From: Ceratodon purpureus
Lineage: Eukaryota > Streptophyta > Bryopsida > Pseudoditrichales > Ditrichaceae
Reading direction: 5' to 3'
NCBI GenBank assembly: GCA_014871385.1
Contig: CM026426.1
Location: forward strand, 101,573,393-101,637,392
DNA length: 64,000 bases
Shown here: piece by piece, positions 1 through 57,304 of the stretch
How the letters are laid out: each line of letters starts with the position of its first letter
Numbering within the stretch: position 1 is the stretch's first letter
Translations under genes and position numbers: made by a program
The notes under the pieces: generated by a model
Databases searched by the model: none
What the model saw: the letters and a program-made list of their open reading frames with translations, nothing else
What the model was told of the DNA's origin: nothing

Positions 1-2662
1 TCGGCGGAAGTTGAAAGCCTGCTGCTTCGAGGGCAAGAATCTCAGTGAGTTTTAGGTTAGTACCTAGTTTCACTGGCCAGACCTCAGGAATGGAGAGGAA
101 TTCCTGGTCCTTTGAGTAGTGTGCTACCCACTTGCGCTTAGAGCCTTTCACGCAGCGCTCAATATCGTCGGAGCAGAAAAAGAACTTTGTCTTCTTGACT
201 ATGTTCCTGCGATAGTTAGTCCAAAGCCCAGTATAGGTTGGTGCAGCTGTGCAATGGGGCCCCCTGACGATTCTCTCAGTGCACTTCTTCTTCGTTTCAG
301 CTCTTTGGGCCCAGCAGCACTTTGCAGAAAGTTTGTGAAGTCTCGAAATGTGCCACTCCTTCACGTCCACCTTGGTTTCTTCAACCGCGTTGACATGGCG
401 AATGCCGCCCTTGTTCACAGGTGAAGGTAAAGGGGAATGAACTTCCCGGGCAGGAGGTTGCGTACATTGTACCTCGGTGTCGTGTTCGGAGTCGTCTTCC
501 TCAATGACGGGCATCTGCATAGGGCGAGCCCTGACGGCACGTCTTGGGCCTCTTGGGCGTGAGAAGTTTGTCTTATCCGGGCGATGAGACTCCTCGTCAG
601 CTCCGATAAGGACGTCGGCTTTTCGCTTCTGTGAACCGAAGACTTCCGCTCCAGGCATGATAGGCTGACGGGTGCACAACTCATCCGCGCCTGGCATATC
701 GAGCATGGGTTTTCGAGCACTGTAGGATTTTCCCATTTCTTCGCGTTGCGTTCAGCCATCCGGAGCCTGAGTTCCTTCTTGGACGATCATGTTCTGCCGA
801 CGTCACCTTTGACGAACTGGTAGTAGTTGACAACCTGTAGAAAAGCCCGAACGAAATCGTCCACCGTAGCAACGTACAGGTCGTTCCCGTTGTTTCCTGA
901 AGCTTGGAGCCACTTGTTGTGAACTGTTTCGGCGAGGTTACACGTCGGCATCTCGGTGAGTTCTTCTTCCGAGAATTTCTGCAATTTTGACAGTAGGTGC
1001 CATTAGATTCACCGATTAGAGTTTTGTAGGTTAGGGCTAGGAAACCAGTATCAAAAACATGAAAACAGAGTGCAGATATTATACCTCGGTCATGAATCCC
1101 TCCCACTGGCGGAAGCGGTGGTGCCAGAATGACAGCCACTGATCGAGTTTGATGAGCCCGCTCTCGCCAACGACTCCGGTGGATGCCCACCAGGCTCGCA
1201 ACGCGTGGTACAAAGTTTCCGCCTCTGCCATGCTAGTCGCATTCTTGTACTGAGTACACATCTTCTTGTGCTGTTCCCAGAGTTCTTCGGGGAAGTGCTT
1301 CTGCGTATATGCCACCATGTTCTGAGTCCAGTGGAACAAGCACGACCTCTCCCGGTCCTCCATTGGGTCCTCTTTGTTGCCATTGCCGTAAAAAATTCGC
1401 ACTGCATTCCAATTTGCCTGTGCGTTATCCGCCATGAACCCCTTGAAGTTCGGCGCTGCAACGCCATTGTTCTCCATGACGAGGTTCAGGTTTTTCCAGA
1501 GGACAAGCTGGGCCTCCGTGTCCTCTTACTGCATGTCGCAACTGGCGATTGTCATCACGCGGCAGTAGGTGGCATCGTACACATGGCACGCCATCGTCGA
1601 CCAGTCTTTAACGCATTTTACATGGTCAAACATGATCCATGCGTTCTCCAAGTCGCCACCAGCTTGCATTCGGCTGACCAAGTCGACACCACTTCCCGGC
1701 CCAACCTCCGACATCTTGAAGACGAAGACTTTGTCACGCATAGATCCCTGACCACGAAACCTATTCTCCTGGACATACGCCCAGAGACTGTTTCCACGGA
1801 GCTTGGTGATACCGTCCATGACTCCGTACCATCTGTATTTTTTGAAGGTTGCGACTTTGTTGCGGATGTTGGGCGACGCCATGTCTTTGCATCGATCCAG
1901 AACAGGAACAAGCTCCTCCATCGTCAGCTTCCTCGGTGGTGCATCCTCGGGCTGTAGCAGGTAGCTCCCAATGAGGAGTTTGCTCGCCTCCAAGACAACG
2001 GCGCTCTTTGTTGCTTTATTGTTCATCTCTACCTGCTCTTCTATTAAGCTACTAATCTCTGCTTTAGAGTCTCTGTAGTCTCCAACTTTCACTGGATGAT
2101 CATGTGTTCCTATGTGAATACAAGCTCTAGTCTGATTTGCTTTGCCCACTACGTAATAAATCATAGCCTCGCATGTAGCTACACATGATGGAGGTTCTTT
2201 ACATACCTTGCACACTAGCGTGGAGTCAGATGGAGGAGGCTGGTCCATGAAAAAAGCTTGCAAGGTACAGCCTTCAAACTCAGTCTCGTTAACCTCGAAG
2301 ATCTTAGGAACACGCTTCAGGAAGTCACACTCCTTGTTGCTGCAGCGCAGCCATCCGACGCAGGTGGAACTTCAAAAAGACAGTTCGAAGTCGTTTTAGA
2401 TGTTTGTTGTGATGGTCTTGATCCACAAGTGACCGTCGTATCGTTTGTCCATTCCCTGCATTGACTTGGCGGCGAGCTTAGAGGATCCTGCAGCAGCTGG
2501 GGGCAACTCAAAAAGAACCGGACCATCAAACTTTGCAGGCAAGTACTCTACTCTCTCGTGTCTAATAGTGGAATAGTCTATCTTCTTCAATTTTTTTTTT
2601 GACCCACGCGCCTTTGCAAGTTGTTGAAGGAGCGGAACAATGCTAACTATGACTTGGGACAA
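1..2662 (-). pseudogene. Mutator-like (MULE) transposase-type gene, decayed
   Basis: One minus-strand frame runs from 2662 to about 1079 and resumes after an apparent intron (about 1078-980) to about 415. It is interrupted by TAA 2396-2398, TGA 2372-2374, TAA 1526-1528 and TGA 787-789. The translated stretches contain a CxxC..C..C segment (VCKVCKEPPSC), a histidine-rich HIGTHDHPV, GSGVDLVSRMQ, an aspartate-bearing WIMFDHVK, the string NFKGFMADNAQANWNAVRI and the helical tail LSFWHHRFRQWEGFM. I recognise this order from MULE-derived proteins common in mosses, Selaginella and ferns; that is family knowledge, not a search. The lesions are single-base stops in an otherwise continuous frame, so decay is recent or slow. 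The gene may continue beyond base 1. Alternative: a domesticated MULE gene, which the stops argue against. Confidence 0.72.
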
Positions 2663-3240
2663 TGGAGGATAAGAGGGATGCCCATGCCTTGGGCGTACAG
2701 ACAGACCATCCCCATGTTCGCAAGCAACTCTGTAGTAGTAGTGGAAGAAGGGAGAAGAATGACTGTACTAGCGAAGCGGTATCGCGAGAGCAAATTGAGA
2801 GGAAAGATGCATCGTTGTTGATCATTTTATTCAAGTTGGAATGTCCATGTGGACGACTAGGTAATGATTTATTCTGTTACGTAACGAATGTACGATTTTT
2901 AGAGAGACGGCGCTAACTAATTAGAATGTTGCTTTTTGCAGGCGCAGATTTACTAGGTAGGAGTTTTTAGAACTACGCATTTAATATTTGAATCGTGGAA
3001 CCAATTCTATTCGATGTGAAGATTGGTGAGATTAGAGTGAGCCGTCAATTGCTTCCAAATTTAATACAAGTATTCCAATGCTTAATTCAAATCCTTTAAT
3101 ATTTTGTGGGCTTGATTTATTCTCTTCCAATATATATTGATCTCATCAGCTTTAATTCAAAATGCATTTATTTATGGTTTTCATTAATTTAAGTAGATCA
3201 ATAATAATCTAAGTATTTAGGGCTGAGTCAAAGGGGTTGA
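2663..3240. other. Gene-poor spacer upstream of the methyltransferase-like gene
   Basis: AT-rich sequence between the 5' end of the minus-strand MULE relic and the TATA box of the plus-strand gene. No conserved coding frame or repeat was seen. Short open frames here overlap each other on both strands and have no recognisable motif. Confidence 0.5.
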
Positions 3241-3249
3241 AGGTGAGGG

Positions 3250-3257
3250 ATATATAA
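3250..3257 (+). promoter_or_regulatory. Candidate TATA box
   Basis: TATATAAG lies about 62 bp upstream of the ATG at 3319, followed by a purine-rich leader. The spacing suits a plant Pol II core promoter with a short 5' UTR. Inference from motif and position only. Confidence 0.5.
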
Positions 3258-3318
3258 GAGGAAGGGGAGGTAGGAGGAGAGCTATATAGTGTGGAGAGTT
3301 CTCTCGTTAGAAAGACAC

Positions 3319-4627
3319 ATGAAGGAGAGTGGAGAGTCATCTCCCTCCACTTATGTCACTCCTAAACCTAGAAGAAAAGCATATAGTACAGATTTTACGA
3401 ATAGGAGAGCGATTAAGAGGAGAGAATCACGTAGAAAGGCAAAGACGAAAGGCAGCATCTTGAGTGCACCTCTGAAGGTTCGAGGAGCTGGGCTGCCTTT
3501 AGCAATTAAATTTTGTAGCATTCGTAATCTCATTCTAGAGTCTTTAGTGGAAATAAAAGAGAAGGTTTTAGATGTCACGGTTCAAGACCATGGTGTAGTT
3601 AACATGGACGATAAAATTAATGAGATGACGGAAGATTTAGTGTTCAATTGTTTAGAGACACCACAGTCTCGGCAGCCTTCGTTTGGCTTAAACGAGTCAC
3701 TTCCAGAAGAGAGAGCTCTAGGATCCACAAAGGATCGACTCTCTACCGAAGTAAGTTTCTGCCCTTCGATTTATTCTTGAATGTTTATTGTTCAATTTTA
3801 GAGGTGATTGCTCTGATTCTCTTGTTACTTACAGTTGTTACAGATGACCTGTACAGTGCTTTATGACTTGGGAATTCTTAGACATTCTTAAACGTACTTC
3901 TCAAACAGTAAAATTTAGAATTTTTCTTTGTAGTTAACCTAACTTTGTTAATTTGAGAAAGTGGACCGACGGCGGAGGCTCTAGATTTGCTAAACAGAGT
4001 GGAGGAGTGAGAGGGGGCGATTCAGAAGCGCCAGAAGAATCTAGTGAGTGGCAGGGAGGTGCAGCGAGAGCGAGGAAAGCCATAATGGAGGAAGGGGAAG
4101 CTTTGGATCGAGAGCATGCGGCCCGTGGAGGTGTAAAAAAAGGTGGGCGAAAAGGGGCGGGGCCAGGAGGACGAGCAAGTGGGAAAGTAGGAGGCCGTGG
4201 GAGGGGAATCGAAGGGAAGTGTTCGAGGATGGAGGTCGGGCGAGGGCGTCGCGGAGGTCACGGGCGCAGAGGGCGTCGCGGTGGGCAGGGAGCAGGGCTT
4301 GCTGCTGTGGCTCCAGCAGAGAGCTCCGAAATGGAGGCCCTGGCTAGGAGGGAGGGCGAAGGCCGAGAGAGGGGACCCGGAGGGGTTGATGAGGTTGGGG
4401 ACCGTGAGGTGGGAGATGACGGCGTGGGCAGTGAGTTGCAAGGTGACAAGGAGGACGACGAGGAGGAAGGAGACGAAGGGGACGACGACAAGGAGGACGA
4501 CAAAGAGGAAGGAGAAGAAGAGGTCCACGACGAGGAAGGTGAAGAGGAGGAGGACGGCGGGCAAGGTGGAGAACAGGACGAAGAGGAGAAGCGGAGAGGA
4601 GGGCGACGCCGGTTCACCGACATAAAG
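3319..4627 (+). CDS. N-terminal exons 1-2 of the composite gene (basic, then Gly/Arg- and Glu/Asp-rich)
   Basis: Exon 1 (3319-3750, 144 codons) starts at the first ATG after the TATA box and ends at an excellent donor (GTAAGT). It is Lys/Arg-rich near the start (RRAIKRRESRRKAK), consistent with a nuclear localisation signal. Exon 2 (about 3962-4627) is GC-rich and low-complexity: an RG/GR-rich stretch (RGRRGGHGRRGRRGGQ) then a long Glu/Asp run, ending FTDIK before the donor GTACGG. The phase is 0 at both ends. An RGG-like plus acidic layout suggests nucleic-acid or chromatin binding, but low-complexity composition proves no function. The weakest point is the exon 2 acceptor, which has a poor pyrimidine tract. 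Confidence 0.5.
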
Positions 4628-4865
4628 GTACGGTCTCATTCATGTGAGAATTTGTTGTGATGTGGTGTTGTATTTGGGTGGTTTTTGAGTTTGAATTCGA
4701 AATTATGTTTACGGAATTGTATGGGGTTTGTGGGTTTGTGTGTTTGTCGGTTTGATTGCAAATGATTGGGTTTTATGGGTTTGTAGGTTTGAGGTTTGGG
4801 TTTTGTGAGTTTGGGTCGCGTAGGGATAGAGTCGCATAGGGTTTGGGTCGCGTTAATGCCTTATG

Positions 4866-6378
4866 CAATGTGCTTGCACAGGCTCCCCCTTCAGCGAGGG
4901 GCCGAGGATGCACAGGCAGCATGTCTTTTTTTTTTCTTGCATTGTGCATTTCATTGAGCGTTCGGCCCCGAATGCTAGTCGGGGCCATGGACATGGGAGG
5001 CTTGCGGAGGCTCCCCCTTCGGGGAGGGGCCGAGGATGCAGTAGTAGCATCCATTTTTTTTTTCTTGCATTGTGCATTTCATTGAGCATTCGGCCCCGAA
5101 TGCTAGTCGGGGCCATGGACATGGGAGGCTTGCGGAGGCTCCCCCTTCGGGGAGAAGCCGAGGATGCAGAGGCAGCATCTTTTTTTTTTTCGTGCGTTGT
5201 GCATTTTATTGAGCATTCGGCCCCGAATGCTAGTCGAGGCCATGGACATGGAAGGTTTGCAGAGGCTCCCTGTTCGGGGAGGGGCCGAGGATGCAGAGGC
5301 TGCATCTTTTTTTTTTTCGTGCGTTGTGCATTTCGTTGAGAATTCTGCCCTGAATGCAAGTCAGAGCCATCGACATGGGAGGCTTGCGGAGGCTCCGTCT
5401 TTGGGAAGGGGCCAAGGATGCAGCAGTAGCATCCATTTTTTTTTTCTTGCATTCTGCATTTCATTACACGTTCGGCCCCGAATGCTAGTCAGGGCCATGG
5501 ACATGGGAGGCTTGCGGAGGCTCCCCCTTCGGGGAGGGGTCGAGGATGCAGACGCAGCATCATTTTTTTTTTCGTGCGTTGTGCATTTCATTGAGCATTT
5601 GGCCCCGAATGCTAGTCGAGGCCATGGACATGGGAGGCTTGCGGAGGCTCCGCCTTCAGGGAGGGGCCGAGGATGCAGTAGCAGCATCCATTTTTTTTTT
5701 CTCTTGCGTTCTGCATTTCATTGAGCATTCGGCCCCTACAGTTGGTCGGGCCCAGGGACATAGGAGGCTTGCAAAGGCTCCTCCTTCGGGGAGGGGCCGA
5801 GGATGCAGAGGCAGCATCTTTTTTTTTTCGTGCGTTGTGCATTTCATTGAGCATTCGGCCCCGAATGGTAGTCGCGGCCATGGACATGCGACGCTTGCGG
5901 AGGCTCCCCCTTGTGGGAGGGGCCGAGGATGCAAAGGCAGCATCTATTTTTTTTCCTGCGTTGTGCATTTCATTGAGCAATCGGTCCCGAATGCTAGTCA
6001 AGGCCATTGACCTGGGAGGCTTGCGGAGACTCCCCATTCGAGGAGGGGCCGAGGATGGAGTAGTAGCATCCATTTTTTATTTTCTTGCATTGTGCATTTC
6101 ATTGAGCATTCGGCCCCGAATGCTAATCAGGGCCATGGACATGGGAGGCTTGCGGAGGCTCCCCGTTGTGGGAGGGGCCAAGGATGTAGAGGCAGCATCT
6201 TTTTTTTTTCCTGCGTTGTGCATTTCATTGAGCATTGGGCCCCGAATGCTAGTCGGGGCCATGGACAAGGGAGGCTTGCGGAGGCTCCTCCTTCGGGGAG
6301 GGGCCGAGGATGCAGTGGCAGCATCTTTTTTTTTTCCTGCGTTGTGCATTTCATTGAGGACTTGGTCGGGGCCCTGAG
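4866..6378 (+). repeat. ~127-bp tandem satellite (about 12 units) inside an intron
   Basis: Units begin (at CATGGACATGGG or its variant) near 4986, 5114, 5241, 5368, 5496, 5623, 5753, 5879, 6005, 6134 and 6260, with partial units at both ends; period 126-130 bp. Each unit holds a hairpin CTCCCC/GGGGAG, a hairpin GGATGC/GCATCC directly followed by a run of about 8-11 T, a spacer GCATTTCATTGA, then two overlapping stems: GCATTCGG/CCGAATGC and GGCCCCGA/TCGGGGCC. The array lies wholly within the intron 4628-6439. Because the period is not a multiple of three, the long open frames on both strands rotate frame between units and are not believable genes. Confidence 0.95.
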
Positions 6379-6439
6379 AATGCTTGCGAACAGCGGAGGC
6401 CTCAGGATTCTAATCATCGTCTCATTGTCTGTAATTTAG

Positions 6440-6905
6440 GAGTCATCTGAGGGTAATATGGAGAGCCAAGTTCAAGTACCAACTCGAGCGGAGACCGAGG
6501 TACTTTAAATTGTACCTTAACCTTTAGATGATTCAACATTTCTGAAATTACTTTTATTTATTACTTTCAAATTTCCTTTGACCTTGGAATATAACCTTTT
6601 TATTTTTCATTATATAGGTATTTTCTGATGCTCCTGAGATGTCTGCCACTTCCCCCATATCAGTTATCAATGTCTCCGACCTTTTGGATTCATTTGATCT
6701 GCACTATTGTACTTGTGATGTAGCAAACCCTATAGGTTTAGGTAGTGTACCTTTAGAGATCCATTCTCCACAGTACATGCCTACCTCTCGAGTTTATATG
6801 CCTACATCTCCTGGATATGAGCCTACTTCCCCTCGCTACATGCCCACTTCTCCTACGCAGGATTCACCTCTGATGTCTCCACCCTCTCCATCCTCGCCTA
6901 TTAGA
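6440..6905 (+). CDS. Exons 3-4 of the composite gene, with RNA polymerase II CTD-like heptads
   Basis: Exon 3 is 6440-6499 (20 codons, phase 0 on both sides). Exon 4 is 6618-6905, ending at the donor GTGAGG, which keeps phase with exon 5. Exon 4 contains four adjacent heptad-like repeats: [21 protein letters not shown] and YMPTSPT, followed by SP-rich sequence ([12 protein letters not shown]). These resemble YSPTSPS of the Rpb1 C-terminal domain: Tyr1, Pro3, Thr4, Ser5 and Pro6 are kept while Ser2 is replaced by Met or Glu. In Rpb1, Ser5-Pro6 is a kinase target and binding platform; here any such role is inference. No other Rpb1 sequence is present. Confidence 0.6.
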
Positions 6906-7178
6906 GTGAGGCGGCCAGCCCATGTTGTGTTTGCCCTTCCAGCAATTTTGCCATGCCCTGTCCAACAAACGAGGCGTTTCTGGAGGAGGCGCCGTCATTG
7001 GAACTGTAGACAGTCTAGGGAGTATTATAGGCGATCATCACGACGATAGAGTCTATAGGCTTAAATGATATTGAACTTGTTGTATTCGATTTATCATTAT
7101 GAAGTGATTTCACATTTCTCTATATTGCAAGATTTTTTAAGTTGCGATTCCAACATTAATTTGCACACCGTTTTGCAG

Positions 7179-9734
7179 GTTACTCAAACACAAGAAGAGT
7201 TGGTAAAACCATCTTGTCCTGAAGAATTGAAGACTGCTTTAGAAGGCGAATTGCAGCACCGTAAACAATACAAGCTGGACTCCATTGGCGTCATCAACAA
7301 ACTCAGGATTAAACCAGAAAGGAAGTCCCGCTTGATGGTGCCCCTCTGCAGGATGATATCAATGGCCAAGGTTAGACCAGTGGGCGAAATGGGGGTACAG
7401 CACTTGGAGCGGGAGTTTGTTAAGGGATATAGAGATGGGGACCGCGTCATGTACATCTCCATATACAACAATGAAGAGCAAACGAAGGATGTTACGGCGG
7501 AGACCATAGCTGGTTGGAGCCCTTTATGGAGGGCCGCGAGTGATCGTTTTGATGATGAGATCCGTGGAGACTAGGACTGGATGCAATTCTCCAACAAGAT
7601 GTTTTTTGTCTGGGAAGGTAACCACCGCCTCGCTGCATGGCTCCGACATATAAACAAGCATCATGCGGACGACCCAGCATGGCACATCTCTGTGCATTGC
7701 ATTATACTTGACCCCCGCGGCCATGTAGGCAGGTTGCTTCACGCCATGCATGACATTAATTGGTAAGTATCTCCGTTGCTATCCTTCTTTGTGCACACTC
7801 AATCCTTCGTGCTACAGAATTTTATTCCTCTAATATTCAACTTTGATTTTCAAGTCGACTGAGAATGACCACGTCAAGAGTAATCTTCCAACAAAGTTGT
7901 TTCGAATCCGCTCATTCGGGATGATGAAACTGGAGGATTTTAAAGACCTCCTGAGCCCTGAAGAATATGATGCATGTCTGAAACACAAGCCACCTAATCC
8001 GTCGTGGTTTCCCTTGACAACCAAAATTTTTATAGCATTTCTATACCGTGTAAGTTTTGCCGCCATCCTGTCTTCGCTTCTGCAACTTGGATAAATTCCA
8101 ATATCCTGATAAATAATTTTGTTTCAACAGCGGGAAATCGCAGTGGCCTCCGACGAAGCAGCGAGGGCCTACTTTGACAAGACACCAGAGGAGGATCAAA
8201 CTACAAATGCAGTTTGGGATGTCATGAATGAGGCATCTGAGAAAATGGTCGAATCCATCAAGAAGAAGGACTTCACAAAGTACTTGGCCATTGCGAATCT
8301 CAAGAATGGTGACGACTTCCTCAATGAAGTGATACACTCACTAATGCCATTTACAATACTTCGTATGTCAACGTCATTCCCTTATTTCGTAGTGTCTAAA
8401 ATAATCACTGTTCTTGCAGATCAATTGACATTACAGTGACTTCTCGAAACCGGTGATGACCCTTGAGAAGCTACAGAAAATTGTCCCAGTTGCAGTTGAG
8501 GCCAAATACAAGGCTCGCTGGTTGAGGTGGTGGAACTCATCCCCAAATTCTAGACTATCTTACAGATTCCTTCCGCTCGAATTCAAGGAAACCGACCTCG
8601 ACCCTTGGTTGAACAAGGCTTCATTTTGGGCTGGGGTATATTTTCTACATTTATTATTCAAATTACATTATAGTTTTTATTTTTCATAACTTCTACCTCG
8701 TCGCTAATATATTCTCGTCTATATTATAGTTGGAGGAAGCTGTCATCAATGAAGTCGACGACATATGCAAAGCGGAGAACCTCATCATCAATTGGAAGGA
8801 TTTTCCTGATGTCCAGGAACCGGGGCCTTATGTGGAGAGTTCACGTATTCCTTTATGGGACAAGGCCTTCCCGACGTTCCTTGGAAAGAAGGCTGAGAAG
8901 GTTTATGATAAGAAGTCTAACTTCGCTAAATTCCCTGGAACCGCTGAGGTTGTCAAGCGGGTTACTTACCGGTGCGTAAGTTAACTTCATCTCATTCGTT
9001 TTCCGCAATAATGGGCTGTTTATTTTTCACTGATGCTAACCTTCTTTAAAATTGTGTATTTAGGTACTTTGAGAGAGAGCTTGTTCCAAAGGGCTTCCTC
9101 ACCATCCAGGAGCTCTCTAAGTACTTTACTGCTTGGACGTCCAGAACCTCGGACAGGTGTATCTATTCTCCACAACAGTTGAAAAGGTACAAAGCTCCTC
9201 ACTTGCTTGAGGGATGCTGGTACATTGATTGTTTTCGCGGTTTCACTATTGACTCTGAGGTGGACATCAAGACTTTACATGATGCCGGTGAGGTAGTGGC
9301 CAAAGAAATGGTGGATGGTACTGAAGATGACGGAGGCCCTGAAGACCAATCATCGGCTCCTCTACCGAAGAAAGGGAGAGCTCGGCAACTGAAATCTTTG
9401 CGATCACATTCACAAGCTTCACAGCAAACGAATGCGGCGTCTTCCGCTCCAGAGCAGACGGCACCAGAGCCCTCTCCAGGTAATGTGGTAACGAAGCCTT
9501 CTTCAACTTCTTCACCGGGTCCTTCCTCGATCAGTGCTTCGGAGATCACCAGAGGTCTCCTTGAGCAGAGGAAGGCCAAACTATATCCTCAAACAACTTC
9601 TTCCGCTGGAGCTTCGATTTCCACACATGTTTCCGTCTTCAACTCATCTGTGGATTCCATGTTGCGGCGAAATAAGAGACTTGAGAGAAATGGTGGCGGC
9701 GACCCGGATTGGATCAAGACTCAAGACTTCATTT
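7179..9734 (+). CDS. Central exons 5-10 of the composite gene, fold unknown
   Basis: Exons 7179-7762, 7855-8049, 8131-8362, ~8420-8635, 8730-8971 and 9064-9734. Distinctive strings are FVWEGNHRLAAWLRHI, WHISVHCIILDPRG, STENDHVKSNLP, RWLRWWNSSP and ERELVPKGFLTIQELSKYF. GNHR with a nearby Trp/His-rich context is reminiscent of ParB/sulfiredoxin-like GxxR catalytic loops, but I cannot establish this. The last ~150 residues are Ser/Pro/Thr-rich linker. Lesions: TAG 7572-7574 between RGD and DWMQF; the 7762/7855 junction is one base out of phase with conventional borders and would be repaired by AG|G instead of the present AAG; the 8362/8420 junction is out of phase, and the only in-frame reading of 8420 meets TGA at 8426-8428. 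I do not recognise a named family. Confidence 0.5.
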
Positions 9735-9835
9735 GTAAGGTATGTTCCAGTATTTTGACATTTCTTGGATACATCCACCTCTACTCGCTTTGTAGTTTCT
9801 AACTCTGCTTCCTTGTTTCCTCAAGTTTGGAGCAG

Positions 9836-10762
9836 GCCGCCAAAACAGAGTTCCGGACCGATGCAAACAAGAGGACCATCTTGGAGTCGACTTGATCATT
9901 GCCGACATCCCTGAGAATCTTCCCGTCCCTTCCGTTTCCGTTCCCCCCACGAGTATTCCGCCTTGGAACTCTCGCCCCAAGGATTATGTGTACGACATCT
10001 TCCGTTTTGCATATTCATACCTGCAGAGAGATGGTGCCCTCTGCTTCATCTACAACACTGATCAGAGCGTGGTTAAGGATACCGAGGAAGAAGCTGAGGG
10101 TGGTGACTTCGTGCTTTTCAAGGACTGGTGGGGCGTCAATGTACTCGGCCTGACTTCTCCTACGAACCCCGAGAACTTGGTAATTTCCCTTAACAAACCC
10201 TTCTCTTTCCTTATTGATAACCCTTCCGCTTAATTTTACTCACTAGTTTTGCTTGACTGCAGACTATGCGGTTCTGGATTCGCGTCTACGTTCGTAGGGG
10301 CAGTACTTTCTCCTTCCAGACGAAGAAATCCCAGCTGATACATGGGATCCTCAACATTACCAAGAGTGATGCCATTTTGAACTTCACCAATGTGGAATCG
10401 CAGCTCATGAATGGGGAGGTGCCCTAGAGAGGCCCAAGGGAGAAAGCCGCTGAGATGATGCAGGGCATAATTGAGGAGCTGTCAAAGCCCGGCGACATAG
10501 TCCTTGATTGGAATGCTGGGACAGGTAACTATTCATACAAATCTCTGCTTAATTATTCCTCTCATTTTGTCCTCTGTTTCTCATTTCTTAGTTTCTCTCC
10601 GAGTTTCAGGGGCCTCCATCAAGGCATCCCAGGCTATTGGTCGTCACATTCTAGCTTTTGAGGAGGACGAAGCCATATTCAACGCCCTTCTCAAAGTGTG
10701 CATGGCTAGACCATCCGCCATGGGCCCTCCTAAACATCCAAGGCCGGCAGCAGCAGACGAAG
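9836..10762 (+). CDS. C-terminal amino DNA methyltransferase-like domain
   Basis: Exons 9836-10179, 10263-10524 and 10610-10762. Using the donor at 9735 (TTT|GTAAGG), the frame enters as CRQNRVPDRC and stays open. A motif IV-like element, VDLIIADIPENLP, sits where amino-methyltransferases have (D/N/S)PP(Y/F): here D-I-P-E, so the second Pro and the aromatic are replaced. About 190 residues later comes a motif I-like element, PGDIVLDWNAGTGASI, then AIGRHILAFEEDEAIF. Motif IV before motif I is the beta-class (CcrM/HinfI-like) permutation. The altered motif IV may mean lost or changed catalysis; SAM binding looks better kept. TAG 10425-10427 interrupts the frame just before RGPREKAAEMM. The copia LTR begins immediately after 10762. 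Confidence 0.58.
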
Positions 10763-11043
10763 TTTTGGATCAGGATGTAATTCATTCACAATAGATGTAA
10801 TGAATGTAGGATGGTATTTGCTTAGGGTTTCGTGCCTCTTCGTCTCCGGACTTCCTGCGATAGTTTACGTTCTTGACTCTGTAGTTTGTGTCTGTCTGCG
10901 TAGCAGTGAGTAGCATGTGCGTTAGCTTGAGCAAGCTGATTAGCGAAGCATTTGTATCATTTTCATTTGAATAAGAAGAATAGTTTGAGAAGCCAGAGTG
11001 TTTACTGTATTGTTCAGCGTTATCTGTTGCATTGGTTACAAAA
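10763..11043 (+). repeat. 5' LTR of the copia element
   Basis: 281 bp, begins TTTTGGATCAGG and ends GGTTACAAAA. Its first bases supply the in-frame stop (TAG at 10792-10794) that truncates the host methyltransferase-like frame. Differences from the 3' LTR are two close positions near 10913-10916 and one near 10962. A conventional initiator-Met tRNA primer site is not obvious just downstream (GGTTATGGGCC is only a weak match). Confidence 0.93.
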
Positions 11044-11626
11044 GGTTATGGGCCTCTTTCTTGCTGAGCGACTCTTCCAAATTTTGGATTACGTTTTCTC
11101 TTAGATTTCTCTTGTTTCAAGCACATTTCTCTTGTCATTTAGTTACTCTTCTCTCATTTCTTTTCTCGGGTTTTTCTCTTCTCTCTGAACACAATTCTTG
11201 ATCTTCTTTAACTTCTTGATTTTTTTTTGTGTTGAGCGATCTGCGATGTTTCAACCTTCCTGATGCTTACACTCCTTTTTCCCAGACAACGTGCATGTCC
11301 TGGTTGTCGATTAGCTCGACAGCTTGGACGCAGTACTCATACATCAAGCTGCGAAGATTATCGAACACTCTGTTCCTTAATTCGATCTGCTTTCCGCATA
11401 TTCTCTCCTTACCGTTACTTACTTCCAGAATTTGATTCATTAGTGCATCCTTGGCATCGCGCTCAAATCACTGGATTATGGACGCCAGAATGCCATAGAA
11501 ATCTTTTGTTCCTAGTCAACTTTGTGCGTCATCTGAATTCTTAATAGCTCAATAGACTGCTGCATTTTTCCAGACTATCTTCATTGTCTTCACAGATTTC
11601 TTTTCTAAGTATTTTTGAGTCTCATT

Positions 11627-14600
11627 ATGGCAACAGATCGAGACCTCATCAGCATTGAGAAGTTCAATGGTCGAGATTTCTCTGTTTGGCGTTTTCAGAT
11701 TCGCAATCTCTTCAAGGCAAAGCGATTACTCCGGATTGTAGAAGGCACAGAACTTTTAGAAGACTGCATTACACCAGCGCAGGAGAATGACTGGCAGGAA
11801 CGGGATACCATTGCCCAAGGAATTATCATGTGTTCTTTAGAACGCAGGTTTCACAAACCGCTTATGATTGCTAAGACTGCTAATCAGTGCTGGACTCGGA
11901 TTTGTGAATTACATGAGTCGAAGAATTCTGGAGATGTTCACGAGCTTCATACTCGGTTCTATGCTCTCTCACTAGAGGGACGTTCCATTCCCGATTTCTT
12001 GGCGGACATTGAAGAGATTGCACAAGAATTACTTGACATGGATCTTTCTCTCAGTGACGATGCTATGATAGCAAAGTTGTTACAGAATCTTCCCTCTAGT
12101 CTTGGAAACTTTCTAGTATCCTGGGATTTAGCGCCGCAGCAGGATCGAACACTGGAGAATCTTACTAAGATTCTGCTGAGAGCAGACAAACGCTCTCGTC
12201 ACTCTTCAACACATGAGCCTCAGGATAATACCATGGCATTTTATGCTCAGAGACAACATCGTTTACAACCTCTTAACCGATTTTCTCGATCAAATAACTC
12301 TGCATTTTTAGGCAATCCATCAGGCACTCATGCTCCGAGCAGTGGGAGCTCTGTTTTCAATAGTGGGAGTTACAATGGAAGCAGTGGCAATTATGCCGTT
12401 GGTAGTGGCAGTAACAGGATAGCAACTGATAGCTATGGTCAGAAGAACAAGCAGAACAGTGGGAGTTATGTTCCTCCTCACTTGCAACTCCGACCACCTT
12501 CACAGACAGCTACTCAGTTTCACCGTTGTAGTGGTCCTACTTGTCAACATTTCCAACATTCTACATCGGCATCTGGGATTTCGCCTTTGAACAAGGGCTT
12601 TCTCAATTTTGAGCAGAGAAAGCAACGTGCTATACAGATTTTAAAGCTTAAGAAAATAACTCCATGCAACAACTGCGGAGAATTAAGACACTGGTTTAAC
12701 GAGTGCCCTTACCGGCGTTCACATTTTCCTCTACGACCTCTGGCACGTGCGAATCTTGCTGACACAGCTTCAAACGGTGACGAAGATTATATGTCCTCTT
12801 ACGATCTGCTGGATTCAACATCGTTGCCCGATCCTTCTTCACCTGATATCGGATACTCACTGGACTTTACTCCACATCATACAGACTTCCAAGATGACAC
12901 TATAGACCTTCACATTGACGAGTCTCAACAAGATAGTCCACATTATGAGCTATCTTTCATGGCTGATTCTCACTCGACACGAGTGGCTTACTCCAATTCT
13001 TGGATAGCTGATACCGGAGCGACTCGTCACATGACCGACAGGCTTGACTGGTTTTCAACAATAGAAACCTTACCTCAAGACCAGAACCTGTCAATTCGAG
13101 CCATTGGAGGACAGATTCATTACGCAACAGGCGTTGGTGATATTCGCATTAAGATTCAGATTCCGAATCAGCAACCTCAACTTGCGTTTCTTCGCGATGT
13201 TTTGTATGTCCTAGGTTTGAGACAAAATTTGTTCTCAACGACACGAGCATCACAGTTATACAAATTCTCATTTCACGGTGATGATACAGGATGTAAGCTT
13301 ACCTCTTGCAATCAAATCATCATGGTTGGGAAAATGGTGGATTGTATCTATCTACTGGATTTCGAAGTGATTCCTAGTGGCTACACTCAGCAAGCTTTTC
13401 TTGCACTACCGTTTCGAGACATTGTTACGAAGCATTCACCAGTTTCTCTGGAAACCTGGCATCAACGATTTGGACATCTCCATTACGACATGATACGACG
13501 TATGGCCTCTCTTGAATCTGTTCAGGGACTTCATATCTCAGGACCAACGACCAAAATTTCAAACCAGCCCTGCATAGGATGTGCTCTTGGCAAAATGTCA
13601 AAACTACCTTTTCCAGTCCATACAGAGCGAGAACGAGCTTCTCATGCTGGTGAACTGGTACATAGCGACATATGTGGACCTAATGAGGTTTCTTATGGAG
13701 GTTCTCTTTATTACATCTTGTTTAAAGATGATTTCTCAACCTACAGATTTGTTTTCACAATTAAACACAAATCTGAGGCTCTATCATGCTTTAAACAAGT
13801 ACTTACCGAAATATGGCAAGTGACACAACGCAGGATCAGTATTTTTAGGACTGATAACGGAGGAGAATATGTGAGCAAGGCATTTACTCAATATTTACTT
13901 GAGCAGCAGATCAAACATGAGTTTACAGCACCAGCCAATCCAGAGCAAAATCGCGTTGTTGAACGTGATAATAGGACTATAATGGAGATGGTTCGCAGCT
14001 GCATACATCATTCACAGGTTTCTCAAAAATTCTGGGCAGAAGCTCTGCACTATGCTATCTACACGTTGAATCGCACTGGTTCACGTTTGCTCAATGGACG
14101 CACTCCATATGAACTATTTACAGGTACCAAACCCTCTGTCTCTCATATGAGGACTTTCGGTTGCCCTGTTTTCATTCACACAGCAGATTCTCTTCGAACT
14201 AAGCTCCAACCGAAATCTCAAAGTGGAATTTTCCTTGGCTACAGTGCAACTTCGAAGGCCTACAGGGTTTGGGACTTATCCAAGAGACGGGTTGTGATAT
14301 CAAGGGATATCATCTGCGATGAGTCAGGAGTTACTACGTCTACCTCTAATGAAGCTTTGGAGCACTCTACAGTTTTCTTTGATGCTGGCCAAGTTTCGGT
14401 GCTGATGCCTCCACAAGCTCAAGTTCCACCTTCACAGGCTCAAGTTCCTCGAATTTCTTCACAAGGACCAGTTCCCCAGATTCTGGTCGAACCTCAAAAT
14501 CAAGCTCAAGCTCCACATCACCTTGATGGCTTGAATACTCCTAACGCTGCAGCACGTCCTCTACGAAACCGCCGACCACCTGACAGATTCTCTCCCACAC

Positions 14601-16198
14601 AGTATGCCTATTCTGCACAAGTCTTTGACTTACCGTCTATTCCTCAGAGTTACTCTGAAGCAATTTCGTCTGACAATGCTAAGCAATGGATTTTGGCGAT
14701 GCAAGAAGAAATACAATCTCTTGCAGACAATAAAACCTGGGAGTTACAGGAATTACCGAAAGGACGTAAAGCAATTCGTAACAAATGGGTTTACGCATAC
14801 AAGACTCATCCGGATGGTTCATTAGCTCGCTTCAAAGCACGGCTTGTGGCCAAAGGGTGTTCACAAAAACCTGGTGTTGACTTTTCAGAGACATTCAGTG
14901 CAGTGGTGCGCTATGACAGTATCCGCACAATTCTCGCCCTTTGTGCATTTGAAGATTATGAAGTCATCCAGTTTGACATCAAAACTGCGTTTTTGAATGG
15001 ATTATTATCTGAAGAAATATACATGCAGCAGCCAGAAGGGTTTGAAGATAAAACTCAGCCTCATTTGGTATGCCGTTTGTTTCGCTCTCTCTATGGACTT
15101 CGACAGGCAAGCAGGGTCTGGAACAAAGTTTTCGACAGCTTTCTCAAAGATAATTCATTATTGGCGAGCCCTGATGATCCCTATGTCTATTTTTCCAATA
15201 TAGAACCCCATCTGTTAACAGCAATTTTTGTTGACGATGGAATTTGTGCCTCGAAGTCCACTGATCGTATCAATTCGGTACTCATGGATATGCACGAAGT
15301 TTTTGAAGTCAAGACCGATGACCCCTCTGTCTACGTTGGCATACACATTATCAGAGAAAGACATGATCGTACCATTTCTTTGCATCAAGCGCTTTATATC
15401 GAAGGGAAGTTGAAAACCTATGGATTGTTTGACTCAGCACCGTGTGCTATACCAGCTGATTCCACGGTTTATCTTCAAGACAAGTCCACAATAACTGACG
15501 ATCATTTCGAACCTGCTTTTCCCTACAAGGCTACTCATGGAAGTCTTGGATTTGCGGCACAGTCCACTCGCCCTGATATCTCATTCGCAACTTCTAATGT
15601 CGGTAGATTTCAAGCCAATCCGACTGCTGAGCATTGTAAAGCTGCCAGGAAGGTTTTCAAGTATCTTCGAGGAACCATTGGTTATGGTATAACTTACGGA
15701 GGAGCCAATTCGAATTGTATTTTGACAGCTTATGGCGATGCAGATTTTGCGAACGATAAGATTGATCGCAAGTCTCGTTCTGGTTGGGTGGTACTCTTAA
15801 ACAACGGTCCGATTGCTTGGGGATCTGATAAGCAAGCCCTTGTTGCAACCAGTACCTGTTATGCAGAGTATATTGCAATCTTTGATGTCACCAAAGTTGT
15901 TGTATGGCTCAGACGGTTATTGGCAAGTATTGGCCATTCGCAATCTGCTCCAACTGTCATTCACTGTGATAATCAGGCAGCGTTACGACTTGCGAAGAAT
16001 CCTGATGATCCAGGCAAGAACAAACACGTTGATCTCAGGTTCCACTATATTCGAGAGCAGCTTGAGTTGGGGCACATCATGTTGAAGTATTGTCCTTTTG
16101 CACAAAATTTGGCAGACATATTTACAAAGGCACTTCCTGTGGAGCAGTTCAAGACTCTTCGTCAAAGATTATCAATTACCGATGTCACTCAACGTTGA
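11627..16198 (+). CDS. copia gag-pol polyprotein (1523 codons)
   Basis: Starts at the ATG 11627 (MATDRDLISI). Domains in order: UBN2/copia-type gag (about residues 1-300); a zinc knuckle CNNCGELRHWFNEC (CX2CX4HX4C); aspartic protease with WIADTGATRHM; GAG-pre-integrase HHCC (WHQRFGHLH … CIGC); integrase core with HSDICG, RTDNGGEY and a Glu in VVERDN forming the DDE triad; reverse transcriptase with FDIKTAFLNG and the catalytic FVDD (usual YVDD); RNase H with YGDADFA, CYAEYIA, HCDNQAA and HVDLRFHYIREQ. Ends TGA just before the polypurine tract. No frameshift separates gag and pol. Length matches intact plant copia elements (about 1,300-1,550 residues). All catalytic residues I can place are present. 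Confidence 0.96.
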   Translation: MATDRDLISIEKFNGRDFSVWRFQIRNLFKAKRLLRIVEGTELLEDCITPAQENDWQERDTIAQGIIMCSLERRFHKPLMIAKTANQCWTRICELHESKNSGDVHELHTRFYALSLEGRSIPDFLADIEEIAQELLDMDLSLSDDAMIAKLLQNLPSSLGNFLVSWDLAPQQDRTLENLTKILLRADKRSRHSSTHEPQDNTMAFYAQRQHRLQPLNRFSRSNNSAFLGNPSGTHAPSSGSSVFNSGSYNGSSGNYAVGSGSNRIATDSYGQKNKQNSGSYVPPHLQLRPPSQTATQFHRCSGPTCQHFQHSTSASGISPLNKGFLNFEQRKQRAIQILKLKKITPCNNCGELRHWFNECPYRRSHFPLRPLARANLADTASNGDEDYMSSYDLLDSTSLPDPSSPDIGYSLDFTPHHTDFQDDTIDLHIDESQQDSPHYELSFMADSHSTRVAYSNSWIADTGATRHMTDRLDWFSTIETLPQDQNLSIRAIGGQIHYATGVGDIRIKIQIPNQQPQLAFLRDVLYVLGLRQNLFSTTRASQLYKFSFHGDDTGCKLTSCNQIIMVGKMVDCIYLLDFEVIPSGYTQQAFLALPFRDIVTKHSPVSLETWHQRFGHLHYDMIRRMASLESVQGLHISGPTTKISNQPCIGCALGKMSKLPFPVHTERERASHAGELVHSDICGPNEVSYGGSLYYILFKDDFSTYRFVFTIKHKSEALSCFKQVLTEIWQVTQRRISIFRTDNGGEYVSKAFTQYLLEQQIKHEFTAPANPEQNRVVERDNRTIMEMVRSCIHHSQVSQKFWAEALHYAIYTLNRTGSRLLNGRTPYELFTGTKPSVSHMRTFGCPVFIHTADSLRTKLQPKSQSGIFLGYSATSKAYRVWDLSKRRVVISRDIICDESGVTTSTSNEALEHSTVFFDAGQVSVLMPPQAQVPPSQAQVPRISSQGPVPQILVEPQNQAQAPHHLDGLNTPNAAARPLRNRRPPDRFSPTQYAYSAQVFDLPSIPQSYSEAISSDNAKQWILAMQEEIQSLADNKTWELQELPKGRKAIRNKWVYAYKTHPDGSLARFKARLVAKGCSQKPGVDFSETFSAVVRYDSIRTILALCAFEDYEVIQFDIKTAFLNGLLSEEIYMQQPEGFEDKTQPHLVCRLFRSLYGLRQASRVWNKVFDSFLKDNSLLASPDDPYVYFSNIEPHLLTAIFVDDGICASKSTDRINSVLMDMHEVFEVKTDDPSVYVGIHIIRERHDRTISLHQALYIEGKLKTYGLFDSAPCAIPADSTVYLQDKSTITDDHFEPAFPYKATHGSLGFAAQSTRPDISFATSNVGRFQANPTAEHCKAARKVFKYLRGTIGYGITYGGANSNCILTAYGDADFANDKIDRKSRSGWVVLLNNGPIAWGSDKQALVATSTCYAEYIAIFDVTKVVVWLRRLLASIGHSQSAPTVIHCDNQAALRLAKNPDDPGKNKHVDLRFHYIREQLELGHIMLKYCPFAQNLADIFTKALPVEQFKTLRQRLSITDVTQR

Positions 16199-16240
16199 AG
16201 TGGGAGATTGGTTACGATATCAACATTTCATTCCATCTAT

Positions 16241-16250
16241 TGAGTGGGAG
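16241..16250 (+). promoter_or_regulatory. Polypurine tract adjoining the 3' LTR
   Basis: TGAGTGGGAG directly abuts the 3' LTR start at 16251, the expected plus-strand primer position. A second similar purine tract (GAAGTGGGAGA, near 16196-16206) follows the gag-pol stop and could be an additional or ancestral primer. Confidence 0.75.
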
Positions 16251-16531
16251 TTTTGGATCAGGATGTAATTCATTCACAATAGATGTAATGAATGTAGGAT
16301 GGTATTTGCTTAGGGTTTCGTGCCTCTTCGTCTCCGGACTTCCTGCGATAGTTTACGTTCTTGACTCTGTAGTTTGTGTCTGTCTGCGTAGCAGTGAGTA
16401 TCAAGTGCGTTAGCTTGAGCAAGCTGATTAGCGAAGCATTTGTATCATTTGCATTTGAATAAGAAGAATAGTTTGAGAAGCCAGAGTGTTTACTGTATTG
16501 TTCAGCGTTATCTGTTGCATTGGTTACAAAA
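16251..16531 (+). repeat. 3' LTR of the copia element
   Basis: 281 bp, three mismatches to the 5' LTR, followed by the target duplication CGAAG (16532-16536). Confidence 0.93.
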
Positions 16532-16536
16532 CGAAG

Positions 16537-16931
16537 CGCCTCCAAAGAGACCAAGACCTGATAAGTGGTGTAAGTCTTCTATTCTTTGTTCAAATTATCC
16601 AAGCACTGCTTCTCTTTGCACCTCTACGTACTCAATCTAACCACAATCGGTTTTCTATTGCAGAGTAGTTTCGGCAACACCGCCACGTGGGCCAACATCA
16701 GTGTCCACTCCATCGTGGCGTCTTCATTCCAGCCCAATTCAGTCTTTCAAACTTCCGGACTACGCAGAGGACTTAGCACAGGCGTTTCAATCTGGAGCCC
16801 TTACATATGTTCCTAGTCGGCCAATTACTTTTGATCCGAGGGCCCTTCTATTCGTCGATGAAGAGGCTGTAGAAGGAGATTCAGAGTCATCTAGTTCTGA
16901 GAGTGGAAGTAGCGATTGTAGCATGTTGTGA
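16537..16931 (+). CDS. Distal exons of the methyltransferase-like gene, separated by copia
   Basis: After the TSD the host frame resumes as APPKRPRPDK, a Pro/Lys-rich tail, then a donor in GATAAGTGGTGTAAGTC (16557-16573 region; more than one GT is possible). The last exon starts at 16664 after TATTGCAG and ends at TGA 16929-16931, with the C-terminus rich in Ser and acidic residues (EGDSESSSSESGSSD). The KRPRPDK/PPKHPRP segment could be a nuclear localisation signal. The exact donor is undecided: the phase requires either GTGGTG or GTCTTC usage. Confidence 0.55.
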
Positions 16932-17211
16932 GTTTGAAGGAGGCTTTGGTCTTTCATTGTTTTCATCTGATTTGATTCGATTTAATTGGAATTGATTGCA
17001 TAATCTTTTGTCTACTCTACTCCAAACACTATAAAGTAGTTATGATTCTCATTTCCAATTTGTCTTCGTGTATGTAAAGGATGAAATGTCACAACTGTAA
17101 TGCTCAAAATATAATCTGAAGAATGAAATGTTACAAAAGAAATGCTCAAAATTTATATTGCGCTGTAATTTATATTTTAATCATTCAAAATCTCACATTT
17201 CCATAGCCATG

Positions 17212-17724
17212 TTACCTATTCTTGGGAGAGATCCAGATACCATCTCTTGGAGAAATTTTCTGTCCTTCCGATACATCCAAGACCTCATTCCCATTGGCAG
17301 ATAGCAATGTCCTCAACAGATCTAACTCAACGCAACTAAGGTCTCTAAGGGACGCTGTCTCCAACCTCTCGTTGTTGATTGGATTTGCAAGTGTCCAAGA
17401 ACTCCTAAAAACACTCCAGCTGATGTTGAACCGATTAACTTCGTATTCGTCCTTCGGACTCCAATGGCGACCCTCGTACGAAAAGTAATCCCACCTTGCT
17501 AGCCGAAGGCATGCGTATTCAGGACTACTGTCAATCTCACGCTTCCAACTCTTCGACACAGCACGAGCGTTCTCGACGTCTTCAAACATGATTACAGTCG
17601 GAGGAGTCCAACCCTGCGTGGCACTACTATCTATATGATCCTAGGGGTTAGGCCCATCCGCCATCCGCTTAAGCAAATCCTGTAAAATCGTTTCACAGGC
17701 AACGACCTCAAATGAATCTCCCAT
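17212..17724 (-). pseudogene. F-box-like family gene copy 1, one in-frame stop
   Basis: Minus-strand frame from ATG 17724 (MGDSFEVVACETILQDLLKRM) to the stop at 17212. A single TAG at 17641-17643 lies after ADGPNP. Key strings are FEDVENARAVSKSWKREIDSS and LRLARWDYFSYEG. It clearly matches the plus-strand ORF at 46173-46598 (DIENARLASLLWRDIIDSS, IRLSRWDHSNEVG), so both belong to one family. Leu-rich start, then a conserved Val/Ala-Ser-x-x-W-K/R block resembles an F-box (recruits substrates to SCF ubiquitin ligases), but this is inferred, not proven. A minus-strand TATATAAG lies about 90 bp upstream. Confidence 0.55.
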
Positions 17725-17809
17725 ACCTTCAGACAACTCCCTAGCAAGTACACGCTTAAGTTCTACAGAAATGATTGAGCTAATACAACTTCAAGGACGT
17801 CTGCTAAGG

Positions 17810-17817
17810 CTTATATA
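17810..17817 (-). promoter_or_regulatory. Candidate TATA box for the F-box-like copy
   Basis: TATATAAG on the minus strand, about 90 bp before the ATG at 17724. Position and motif only. Confidence 0.4.
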
Positions 17818-18099
17818 GATTCTTGCTTGACACTTAAGCTAGGAATGCTCTTATCTAAAGACGGAGAATTCTTCTACGAAGACAAGCACTCTGACTTGGT
17901 GTACATCTTGGTTTCTGCTACTCCATTATTGTACACGAACTCTGAAATATTCCACGAACTTTTAAGACCACTTCTATTTGCTGGTTTTGAGTTTTTGTAT
18001 TCCTAGAATTATCTATATTATCCAAAAACATCATGCTGGAATACTCATATCTAGATCTTATAAGGGACCAAATCTAAAGGAATGTATTCGAGCACCCTA

Positions 18100-18486
18100 C
18101 TAGTCTTCACAGTAATAATCCTTCGGGGGATATACAGTCCAACTCTTATCGATATCAAACCAGCAGGTTTCGCCATCCGATATGATCACTTCGGGCAGCT
18201 GAACAACTGGATTCTCATCGACGGTGGATGGCAAGGGATACGGGATTAGGGACAACTCCATAATACGGAGAAGCTCTTTGGTACAAAGCACTGTCCAACG
18301 CCATTCACCTTCACCAACATGGAGGCTTTCGATGTGCCTAAACGGTGGCAGGTCCATGCCTCGTTCCCTAGCGCGCTCCACCTCCAGCAACTAGGGTCGC
18401 AGCTCCTCATAACTCGCCGGTGCCTTTGGGGGCAAACCTACAGCCGCTCTCGTCCTCCTCGATCTTGCATTACGCACCTTCGGCAT
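18100..18486 (-). pseudogene. Small basic/acidic ORF with one stop, upstream of F-box-like copy 1
   Basis: A minus-strand frame from ATG 18486 (MPKVRNARSRRTRAAVGLPP) to the stop at 18100, broken by TAG 18391-18393 just before LLEVERARERGMDLPP. The rest reads IESLHVGEGEWRWTVLCTKE and ends PPKDYYCED. Length about 128 codons. I do not recognise the family. It is on the same strand as, and 0.4 kb upstream of, the F-box-like copy, so it could be an upstream exon of the same gene or a separate gene. A Gln codon would fit the TAG position. Confidence 0.4.
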
Positions 18487-19205
18487 CGCGCAACACAGTA
18501 AATTGTTATAGTCTTAAAACGTTCCACGCAAGCTTGCAGATTGGCCCCCCCGAACTCCTACTCTACCTTCGCATACAGCACAGAATGCCAAGGACTGTGT
18601 CACTATCTTAATACGCCACCTGGAAACAAGCTCAAGAAACCAAGAGTGACCTCCTTCTGTACAACCCAGCTTACCAAGTGTTGTTTCATGATGAAAATCT
18701 CTTACTTGTATCACTCAAATGAAGAAGCTTCGCTGCCTAGGAAGAGAGAGTAATCTTCGATGAAGACAAGGACTCTGACAAGGTATATCTTGGTTTCAGC
18801 AGTTAAGATACTATACACGAATTTTGAAATATTCCAGGAAGTTTTCAAACCTTGCCTCCTTTATGTTCTGTGAAATTTGTTTTTTTCTTTGTGCATTTAC
18901 ATAATCCTATGAAAGAATTATTTGTTTGATCTAAAACTTAACTCATGATCATTGTATCTTTCCTAAACCCATGACAAATCTAACAAAATATATGCATGAC
19001 GTCATCATGACATCAGCCCTAATTTGTATCTTAGAGAACAAACGTAATAAATTCTTACCAGAGATAACCCTGATTTCCACGGTAATATACTCTTATCCCA
19101 ATAAAACTGTCAAAATCAAGCCTTAATTTAGTAATTTTCCACGGTTATAGGGTCTACTTTGCTTTTGAAAATTTGGCTACTTGTCATTTTTGTGCTCTCC
19201 ATTCT
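18487..19205. other. Unassigned spacer
   Basis: AT-rich, overlapping short frames on both strands without recognisable motifs; no RNA gene seen. Confidence 0.4.
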
Positions 19206-19207
19206 GT

Positions 19208-19247
<40 letters not shown>

Positions 19248-19267
19248 ACGCTCTACGCTCTCCGCTC
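19206..19267. repeat. CTCTCCG heptanucleotide microsatellite
   Basis: About eight to nine tandem copies of a 7-bp unit (GCTCTCC, with GCTCTAC variants). Unlike the plant telomere repeat (TTTAGGG). It lies at the 3' side of the minus-strand gag/protease relic. Confidence 0.85.
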
Positions 19268-19481
19268 ACATACGAACTTTCCCCTCCGGTAGTGTAATAG
19301 TTCCCACTGCGAATATATCCTCCTCTGTTCTCAAGAAACGATCCTCCCCCTCGTCTGTCAGTCCTTCAGCTAGATTGTAGCATACAAGTACTTCTGGCAG
19401 CTTGGGTAGAGGGCCTTTTTGTTGGTTGATAGATATCGTCTTGACCGTGCCGTTACCCCGGATAGTAACCAGTTTGTTTCC

Positions 19482-57274: not shown

Positions 57275-57304
57275 ATGAATTGTTGCACATGCCAGGAACT
57301 AAAC

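Follow-up and report, generated by a model that had tools for sequence, protein, structure and literature searches.

The window, a stretch of 64,000 nucleotides from contig CM026426.1 of the moss Ceratodon purpureus, holds in its first 19,284 positions a copy of a DNA transposon resembling Mutator-like elements (MULEs). Within this copy lies a gene of many exons, whose protein joins heptads like those of the carboxy-terminal domain (CTD) of RNA polymerase II to a domain derived from DNA amino-methyltransferases. A preliminary description had read it as a composite host gene spanning 3319 to 16931. The exons do lie where that description placed them, but positions 10763 to 16531 of the span are a copia insertion, and the gene belongs, as an accessory gene, to a large, high-copy MULE-like DNA transposon family. 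We reject the composite host gene because the cargo unit recurs with transposon ends and flanking duplications, and we are highly confident that the gene is cargo of a transposon and contains a methyltransferase-derived domain. The features are as follows.

1..19284, no strand assigned: MULE-like DNA transposon copy (collinear loci, termini, flank duplication)
1..2767, minus: transposase gene, in pieces 2399-2767, 1529-2371, 1082-1525, 790-1002 and 1-751 (the last running into left-flank locus L057); SWIM-like zinc finger
3319..3750, plus: exon E1, basic; weakly supported member of the gene
3947..4627, plus: exon E2, Arg-Gly (RG)-rich and then acidic; weakly supported
4872..6358, plus: tandem array of ~127-bp units (11.7 units) in the E2-E3 intron, two GC-rich inverted repeats per unit
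6440..6499, plus: exon E3 (dN/dS, splice sites)
6618..6905, plus: exon E4, four RNA-polymerase-II-CTD-like heptads (Pfam, copies, dN/dS)
7179..7762, plus: exon E5, EGNHRLAAW motif; in-frame stop at 7572-7574
7855..8049, plus: exon E6, acceptor altered in the window copy
8131..8361, plus: exon E7, end uncertain (8328 possible)
8420..8635, plus: exon E8, in-frame stop at 8426-8428
8730..8971, plus: exon E9 (dN/dS, splice sites)
9064..9739, plus: exon E10, Ser/Pro-rich linker (dN/dS, splice sites)
9826..10179, plus: exon E11, with DLIIADIPE, the half of the methyltransferase domain that holds motif IV
10263..10524, plus: exon E12, with VLDWNAGTG, the half that holds motif I; stop in frame at 10425-10427
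10610..10762, plus: exon E13, first part, interrupted by copia
10763..16531, plus: copia long terminal repeat (LTR) retrotransposon within E13, 281-bp LTRs, duplication CGAAG
16537..16567, plus: exon E13, second part
16668..16931, plus: terminal exon, coding for an acidic serine tail and ending in the stop at 16931; its start is uncertain, and the second subfamily has a similar tail
17212..17640, minus: third open frame of the element, no Pfam match

A high-copy MULE-like transposon

The genome was searched as 362.5 Mb in 151 contigs, with the window on contig C6. Comparison of left-flank loci places the left end of the element 2,152 bases beyond the left edge of the window (position 7849 of L057); its right terminus occupies 19264-19282 plus CC, for a length of 21.4 kb, or about 15.7 kb minus the copia insertion. 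The window copy is flanked by the 10-bp target duplication TCCGGTAGTG, with the right copy at 19285-19294, and its ends are imperfect terminal inverted repeats with GGAGAGC units and GG..CC extremities. With two mismatches at most, the left end was found at 325 places in the genome and the right end at 834, the reversed-pattern controls giving zero for each. Ten left/right end pairs were picked by hand from the end places listed, and their duplications were read by eye from printed flanks: nine share a flank duplication of 9-10 bp, in one case with a 2-bp offset, and the tenth shows no common duplication. The nine duplicated pairs span 13.6-16.8 kb, and two of them (on C6 at 1.73 and 21.0 Mb) enclose a listed E11 copy. 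Within the range of the first 100 left ends listed, 18 of 75 E5 copies had a left end of the same orientation 4-25 kb upstream, against 0.46 expected; an opposite-facing end and an end lying downstream were each found for one of the 75.

Six 10-kb loci (L051-L056) are collinear with the window, several extending well past the gene; over long gene stretches L051-L055 are 92-95% identical to the window, and L056 75%. Exon copy counts are lower bounds, as only the best candidates were scored: E4 gave 177 matches from the best 150 of 974 candidates, E5 matched in all of the best 150 of 1,900, and E11, with the L051 letters as query, in all of the best 150 of 1,681. E4 and E5 were each found in 48 of the loci compared, among which L009-L056 are 48 that partly overlap. 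By our count, stops occur in 28 of the 150 rows for E5 and five of the 150 for E11. As to intact paralogues in the same genome, which the preliminary description had proposed as a check, copies are many and stop-free exon copies occur, but none of the copies compared was shown to be intact over the whole gene.

The transposase lies at the left end of the element, on the strand opposite to the cargo gene. All 123 scored of its 2,218 candidates match, many with open frames of at least 700 amino acids. Read by eye, its residues include MADNAQANW, CLFH, AETVHNKW and CTC..CKH, which may represent a D, D, E pattern with C(2)H between the second D and the E, and a zinc finger. Target duplications of 8-11 bp and SWIM fingers are tabulated for MULE groups, and SET domains for one Phytophthora group (PMC6446971). 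The duplications of the moss element are of such a length, and terminal inverted repeats are present. We call it MULE-like from the length of its duplications, its termini, the CxxH motif and the SWIM-like finger, by patterns as we take them to hold for MULEs. Set against this, neither Pfam nor NCBIfam recognises the transposase, the only hit being SWIM at an expectation value (E) of 0.13, below the cut-off; for that reason the label is kept at MULE-like, and is provisional. The family may already bear a repeat name.

Right ends far outnumber left ends genome-wide, which suggests that there are many truncated or cargo-free derivatives with a common right end.

The Lanisha superfamily, likewise of cut-and-paste DNA transposons, is reportedly linked to Ceratodon purpureus. 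Lanisha resembles EnSpm, and its group is described as carrying the motifs C(2)C and H(3-4)H, with ends that are mostly CA..TG and with duplications of 2-5 bp (PMC12730594), whereas the moss element has CxxH, GG..CC ends and a 10-bp duplication. A Lanisha identity was dropped, since the 9-10 bp duplications and the CLFH motif (by eye) disagree with these traits.

Exon structure, selection and the intron array

The exon joins proposed in the preliminary description are supported: splice dinucleotides are present at 4627/6440, 6499/6618 and 7179, and the ratio of nonsynonymous to synonymous substitution (dN/dS) is low in frame. Among 28 distinct other copies, the E4 donor aside, splice sites from E3 to E5 are kept in every covering copy (27 or 28), and over the longer run that starts at the E3 acceptor and ends at the E10 acceptor at most one of the 24-28 covering copies departs at any site. 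For the sites between the E10 donor and the E13 acceptor, both included, the covering copies number only four or five, and every one keeps them. The E7 donor is uncertain among the copies compared. Phase consistency, which the preliminary description had claimed for the exons, does not hold throughout the window copy, where stops fall at 7572, 8426 and 10425 and where the E6 acceptor common to 26 of 26 other covering copies is lost. With these three in-frame stops, the changed acceptor and the 5.8-kb copia insertion, the window gene copy is dead. The two copia LTRs are identical at 280 of 283 positions, and the E13 site is free of copia in four of the six other loci (L051, L052, L053 and L056), the matches of L054 and L055 ending short of it. 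An alternative frame at the start of E11 (AAKTEF...) was dropped, as L051-L056 all keep the VDLIIADIPE-type frame.

In samples of 7-31 distinct sequences per exon (five for E12), dN/dS was 0.20 for E3, 0.28 for E4, 0.25 for E5, 0.16 for E6, 0.39 for E7, 0.25 for E8, 0.28 for E9 and 0.38 for E10. Shifted-frame controls gave 0.79-2.46, and the low values in frame support the exon reading frames; judged by these ratios, the gene is under purifying selection from E3 to E10. Membership of E1 and E2 in the gene is less sure, because their values are weaker (0.50 and 0.64, the shifted frames of E2 giving 0.82-0.89) and come from four sequences each. Several observations weigh against this picture of a maintained gene. 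E11 and E12 both have a dN/dS of 0.62, weaker than the front half, and no more than 19 of the 28 copies retain the E4 donor. Three copies, L022/L051, L025/L054 and L026 (two of them on C13 and one on C2), have an E4 whose front reads into another frame; L022/L051, which was checked, still has its heptads in a second frame, and such copies may be broken at this place or be spliced in another way. Exon indels are mostly of lengths other than multiples of three (six of six in E4, five of seven in E10, six of seven in E11), as is expected of decayed copies.

According to Tandem Repeats Finder, the tandem array in the E2-E3 intron is built of 126-128 bp units both in the window and in four of the six other loci, with 32.9 units in L051 (where the array continues to the locus edge), 28.5 in L052, 4.7 in L053 and 13.8 in L054; the program reports no array in L055 or L056. 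Consensus units are 63-97% identical between copies and diverge faster than the exons, and the two GC-rich inverted repeats recur in every unit type. By eye, one inverted repeat is retained in L051 and L054 relative to the window, though both of its arms differ between unit types. As far as the letters tell, such a retained palindrome resembles what a dimer binding site or an RNA hairpin might show.

Heptads and a methyltransferase-derived domain

The protein opens with an RG/acidic part, which is less sure, and continues with four or five YxPTSPx heptads, a domain with an EGNHR motif and a middle region, to end in a methyltransferase-derived C-terminus. The preliminary description had noted four of the heptads, and these match Pfam family PF05001 just over its cut-off (E 4.9e-4, 20.7 bits against 20.3): tandem YSPTSPS-like heptads are present, with Ser2 and Ser7 replaced. 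We found 25 distinct segments, each with two to five Y.PTSP units; positions Y1, P3, T4, S5 and P6 are largely kept, Ser2 giving way to Met or Glu and Ser7 to Val, Arg or Thr. The chance that they are a mere flexible Ser/Pro linker, like the polymerase tail by accident, we put only just short of even, as the heptads number only four or five, with both serines replaced, lie amid further Ser/Pro-rich sequence and score barely above the cut-off. The conservation of the remaining five positions among copies, along with the dN/dS of E4, argues against a linker.

At the other end of the protein, motif IV (DIPE, at 9.9 kb) precedes motif I (VLDWNAGTG, at 10.5 kb), as the preliminary description had said, which is the beta-class order. 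The motif I half of the window gene matches PF01555 (E 2.4e-7, Pfam), and a phage profile library gives amino-methyltransferase matches to its C-terminal part, the best at 1.1e-10; solved structures give seven matches, the best at 5.2e-4 (DpnA-type, CcrM, RsrI, MboIIA). In alignment with phage enzymes, DIPE and DVPE stand in the place of DPPF and DPPY, and DWNAGTG in that of DPFGGSG. A second subfamily in the genome (L001-L008, L059-L061), which is multi-copy and on its sequence may be mobile too, has an acidic tail, and its parts follow the same order in three loci that were read at length (L059-L061, together with L001, L002 and L004). The spliced domain of this subfamily, taken from L002, matches PF01555 over 2-219 of 221 (E 1.7e-9); a whole-domain profile match is found in this subfamily only. 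When a structure model of the second-subfamily domain was compared with the PDB by Foldseek, the 41 best hits were all amino-methyltransferases (E 2.2e-4 to 0.42, ten at or below 0.001), ranging from M1.HpyAVI and CcrM to bdelloid N4CMT, PvuII and type III Mod subunits. The C-terminal domain is descended from permuted (beta-class) amino-methyltransferases.

Some of the evidence runs the other way. The L051 transposon version matches PF01555 only at 163-218, the motif I half (E 7e-9), and of 131 phage records that match at E ≤ 0.1, the seven that cover at least 80% of the query are weak (23-25% identity, best E 2e-3). The structure model was made for the second subfamily, from seven rows and including an intron-coded stretch; its predicted local distance difference test (pLDDT) score is 38.6, and as template modelling (TM) scores on the query are low, at 0.25-0.38, it supports the fold class only. 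The methyltransferase fold foreseen for the C-terminus is supported, at the level of fold class, by these PDB hits to a low-confidence model of the second subfamily. That the heptads and the beta-class-derived domain belong to one eukaryotic nuclear gene, as had been proposed, is supported by common frames and splice sites.

The catalytic motif IV of beta-class enzymes has the consensus (D/N/S)PP(Y/F). D[I/V]PE, found in all seven transposon copies read (the window and L051-L056), departs from this and lacks its aromatic residue, so that the domain of the transposon version probably no longer methylates. In the second subfamily the four motif IV sequences read are near-canonical (DQPY, DQPF, DQPF and DTPF), and motif I has lost one glycine (ASTG); both motifs are canonical in no copy read of either subfamily. 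A point on the side of function is that motif I of the transposon version keeps AGTG, and SAM (S-adenosylmethionine) binding and some activity may be conceivable.

The EGNHR domain is strongly conserved between both subfamilies. It has no Pfam match and no phage match, and its structure model (pLDDT 46.1) fits no PDB fold; a ParB fold, suggested by the (E/D)GNHR motif, was dropped after every profile and fold test had failed, PF02195 having zero matches in the genome. None of the eleven second-subfamily loci shows Y.PTSP in any reading frame, though these loci may not reach the first exons. Past the exons, L002 and L003 (1,957 bases) and L004 and L005 (2,967 bases) are about 95% alike. PF01555 also matches in open frames of 567 and 569 amino acids elsewhere in the genome (C1:5958254-5958736 and C5:15306119-15306592), over a different part of the profile than in the transposon family; these two could possibly be relatives of the liverwort N4-methylcytosine (4mC) enzyme.

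Proposed role and relation to known systems

The most likely role, in our analysis, would be that of a DNA-binding factor that counters silencing or keeps the element transcribed, in the manner of the VANC protein of Arabidopsis VANDAL elements. As a whole we regard this as the best explanation, and our confidence in it is evenly balanced; the mechanism that follows is offered tentatively. The dead-looking methyltransferase fold would serve to hold DNA, and the protein would recognise repeats of the element itself, both the palindromic 127-bp units arrayed in the intron and, at the ends, the GGAGAGC heptamers, and would then keep the element expressed or unsilenced. The heptads might provide a dock for readers of Ser5-Pro in the RNA polymerase II tail, or attract Ser5-type kinases. 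The strategy would be VANC-like, with protein parts that are apparently unrelated. A bolder version, which we consider improbable, makes the protein a mimic of the polymerase tail: the heptads would gather transcription factors or CTD kinases while the dead methyltransferase fold binds the intron palindromes, the element would be held open, and array and protein would probably co-evolve rapidly.

Other roles can be envisaged for the same parts. An accessory transposition factor, likened to MURB of maize MuDR, would bind the ends or the transposase and steer insertion to transcribed chromatin via the heptads; the gene adjoins the transposase, is under purifying selection and retains its heptads, all in keeping with such a role, which we nonetheless judge somewhat unlikely, since the excess of right ends (834) over left ends (325) means that ends also exist apart from full elements. 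An active N4-cytosine or N6-adenine methyltransferase, tagging the transposon DNA to block silencing or aid transposition, would account for the PF01555 match, the AGTG retained in motif I and the D[QT]P[YF] of the second subfamily, and it has a precedent in a related 4mC enzyme that functions in bdelloid rotifers, with another reported from a liverwort (PMC8885841). It is unlikely in view of D[I/V]PE in seven of seven transposon copies and of ASTG at motif I in the second subfamily, which leave no copy read canonical at both motifs. MULEs tend to pick up fragments of host genes (PMC6446971), and the gene could be such a captured fragment, a passenger without a role for the element; dN/dS well under 1 in E3-E10 and the small numbers of stop-bearing rows for E5 and E11 make this very improbable.

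VANDAL elements are MULEs with an extra gene, and they share with the moss element fast-changing tandem repeats, present also in an intron of that gene; we know of no relation of VANC to any methyltransferase. VANC binds short motifs and removes methylation from the element, and its target motifs often form tandem repeats, also inside the VANC intron (PMC5735166). Anti-silencing is demonstrated for VANC, whereas the moss gene is likened to it by layout alone. With hundreds of ends and many open-frame copies in one genome, the anti-silencing proposal is testable.

As to the cargo, bdelloid N4CMT and the Marchantia 4mC methyltransferase are likewise bacterial-type amino-methyltransferases in eukaryotic nuclear genes; N4CMT joined a permuted PF01555 domain to a gained chromodomain (bdelloid 4mC methylation, PMC8885841), where the moss transposon gene has heptads instead. 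Those two are host enzymes that deposit 4mC, in contrast to a transposon gene with D[I/V]PE. Selfish elements with a DNA methyltransferase (DNMT) are known from charophyte and dinoflagellate DNMT retrotransposons (PMC5890265) and from DIRS elements with a Dam-like methylase, but these are retrotransposons with other methyltransferase classes, whereas here a DNA transposon carries a beta-class-derived domain. KDZ and other fungal TET/JBP transposons (PMC12730594) are DNA transposons with DNA-modification cargo; in them the cargo is a dioxygenase, and the transposase families differ. The words 'methyltransferase' and 'methylase' are absent from the main text of a MULE survey (PMC6446971), and no DNA transposon with methyltransferase cargo is apparent from the titles and opening abstract lines of the papers listed in searches of one literature collection for such cargo. 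The MULE-like element is of a known kind; its cargo is new. The 'undescribed system' of the preliminary description is plausible. To our knowledge this would be the first MULE-like transposon to carry an amino-methyltransferase domain of bacterial type; polymerase-tail-like heptads, too, would be the first known to us in a transposon protein, no literature search on heptads having been made.

The rest of the window holds further open frames. One at 46077-46598 (plus) resembles, by eye, the third frame of the element at 17212-17640 (minus), with an ENAR...RWD pattern, and both are presumably F-box-like. We take the frames at 19482-21568 (minus) to be retrotransposon gag/protease-like, those at 39967-43422 (plus) to be CACTA-like and those at 62369-63217 (plus) to be hAT-like; open frames at 57203-58948 (plus) have what we assume to be the look of an M6-type metalloprotease.

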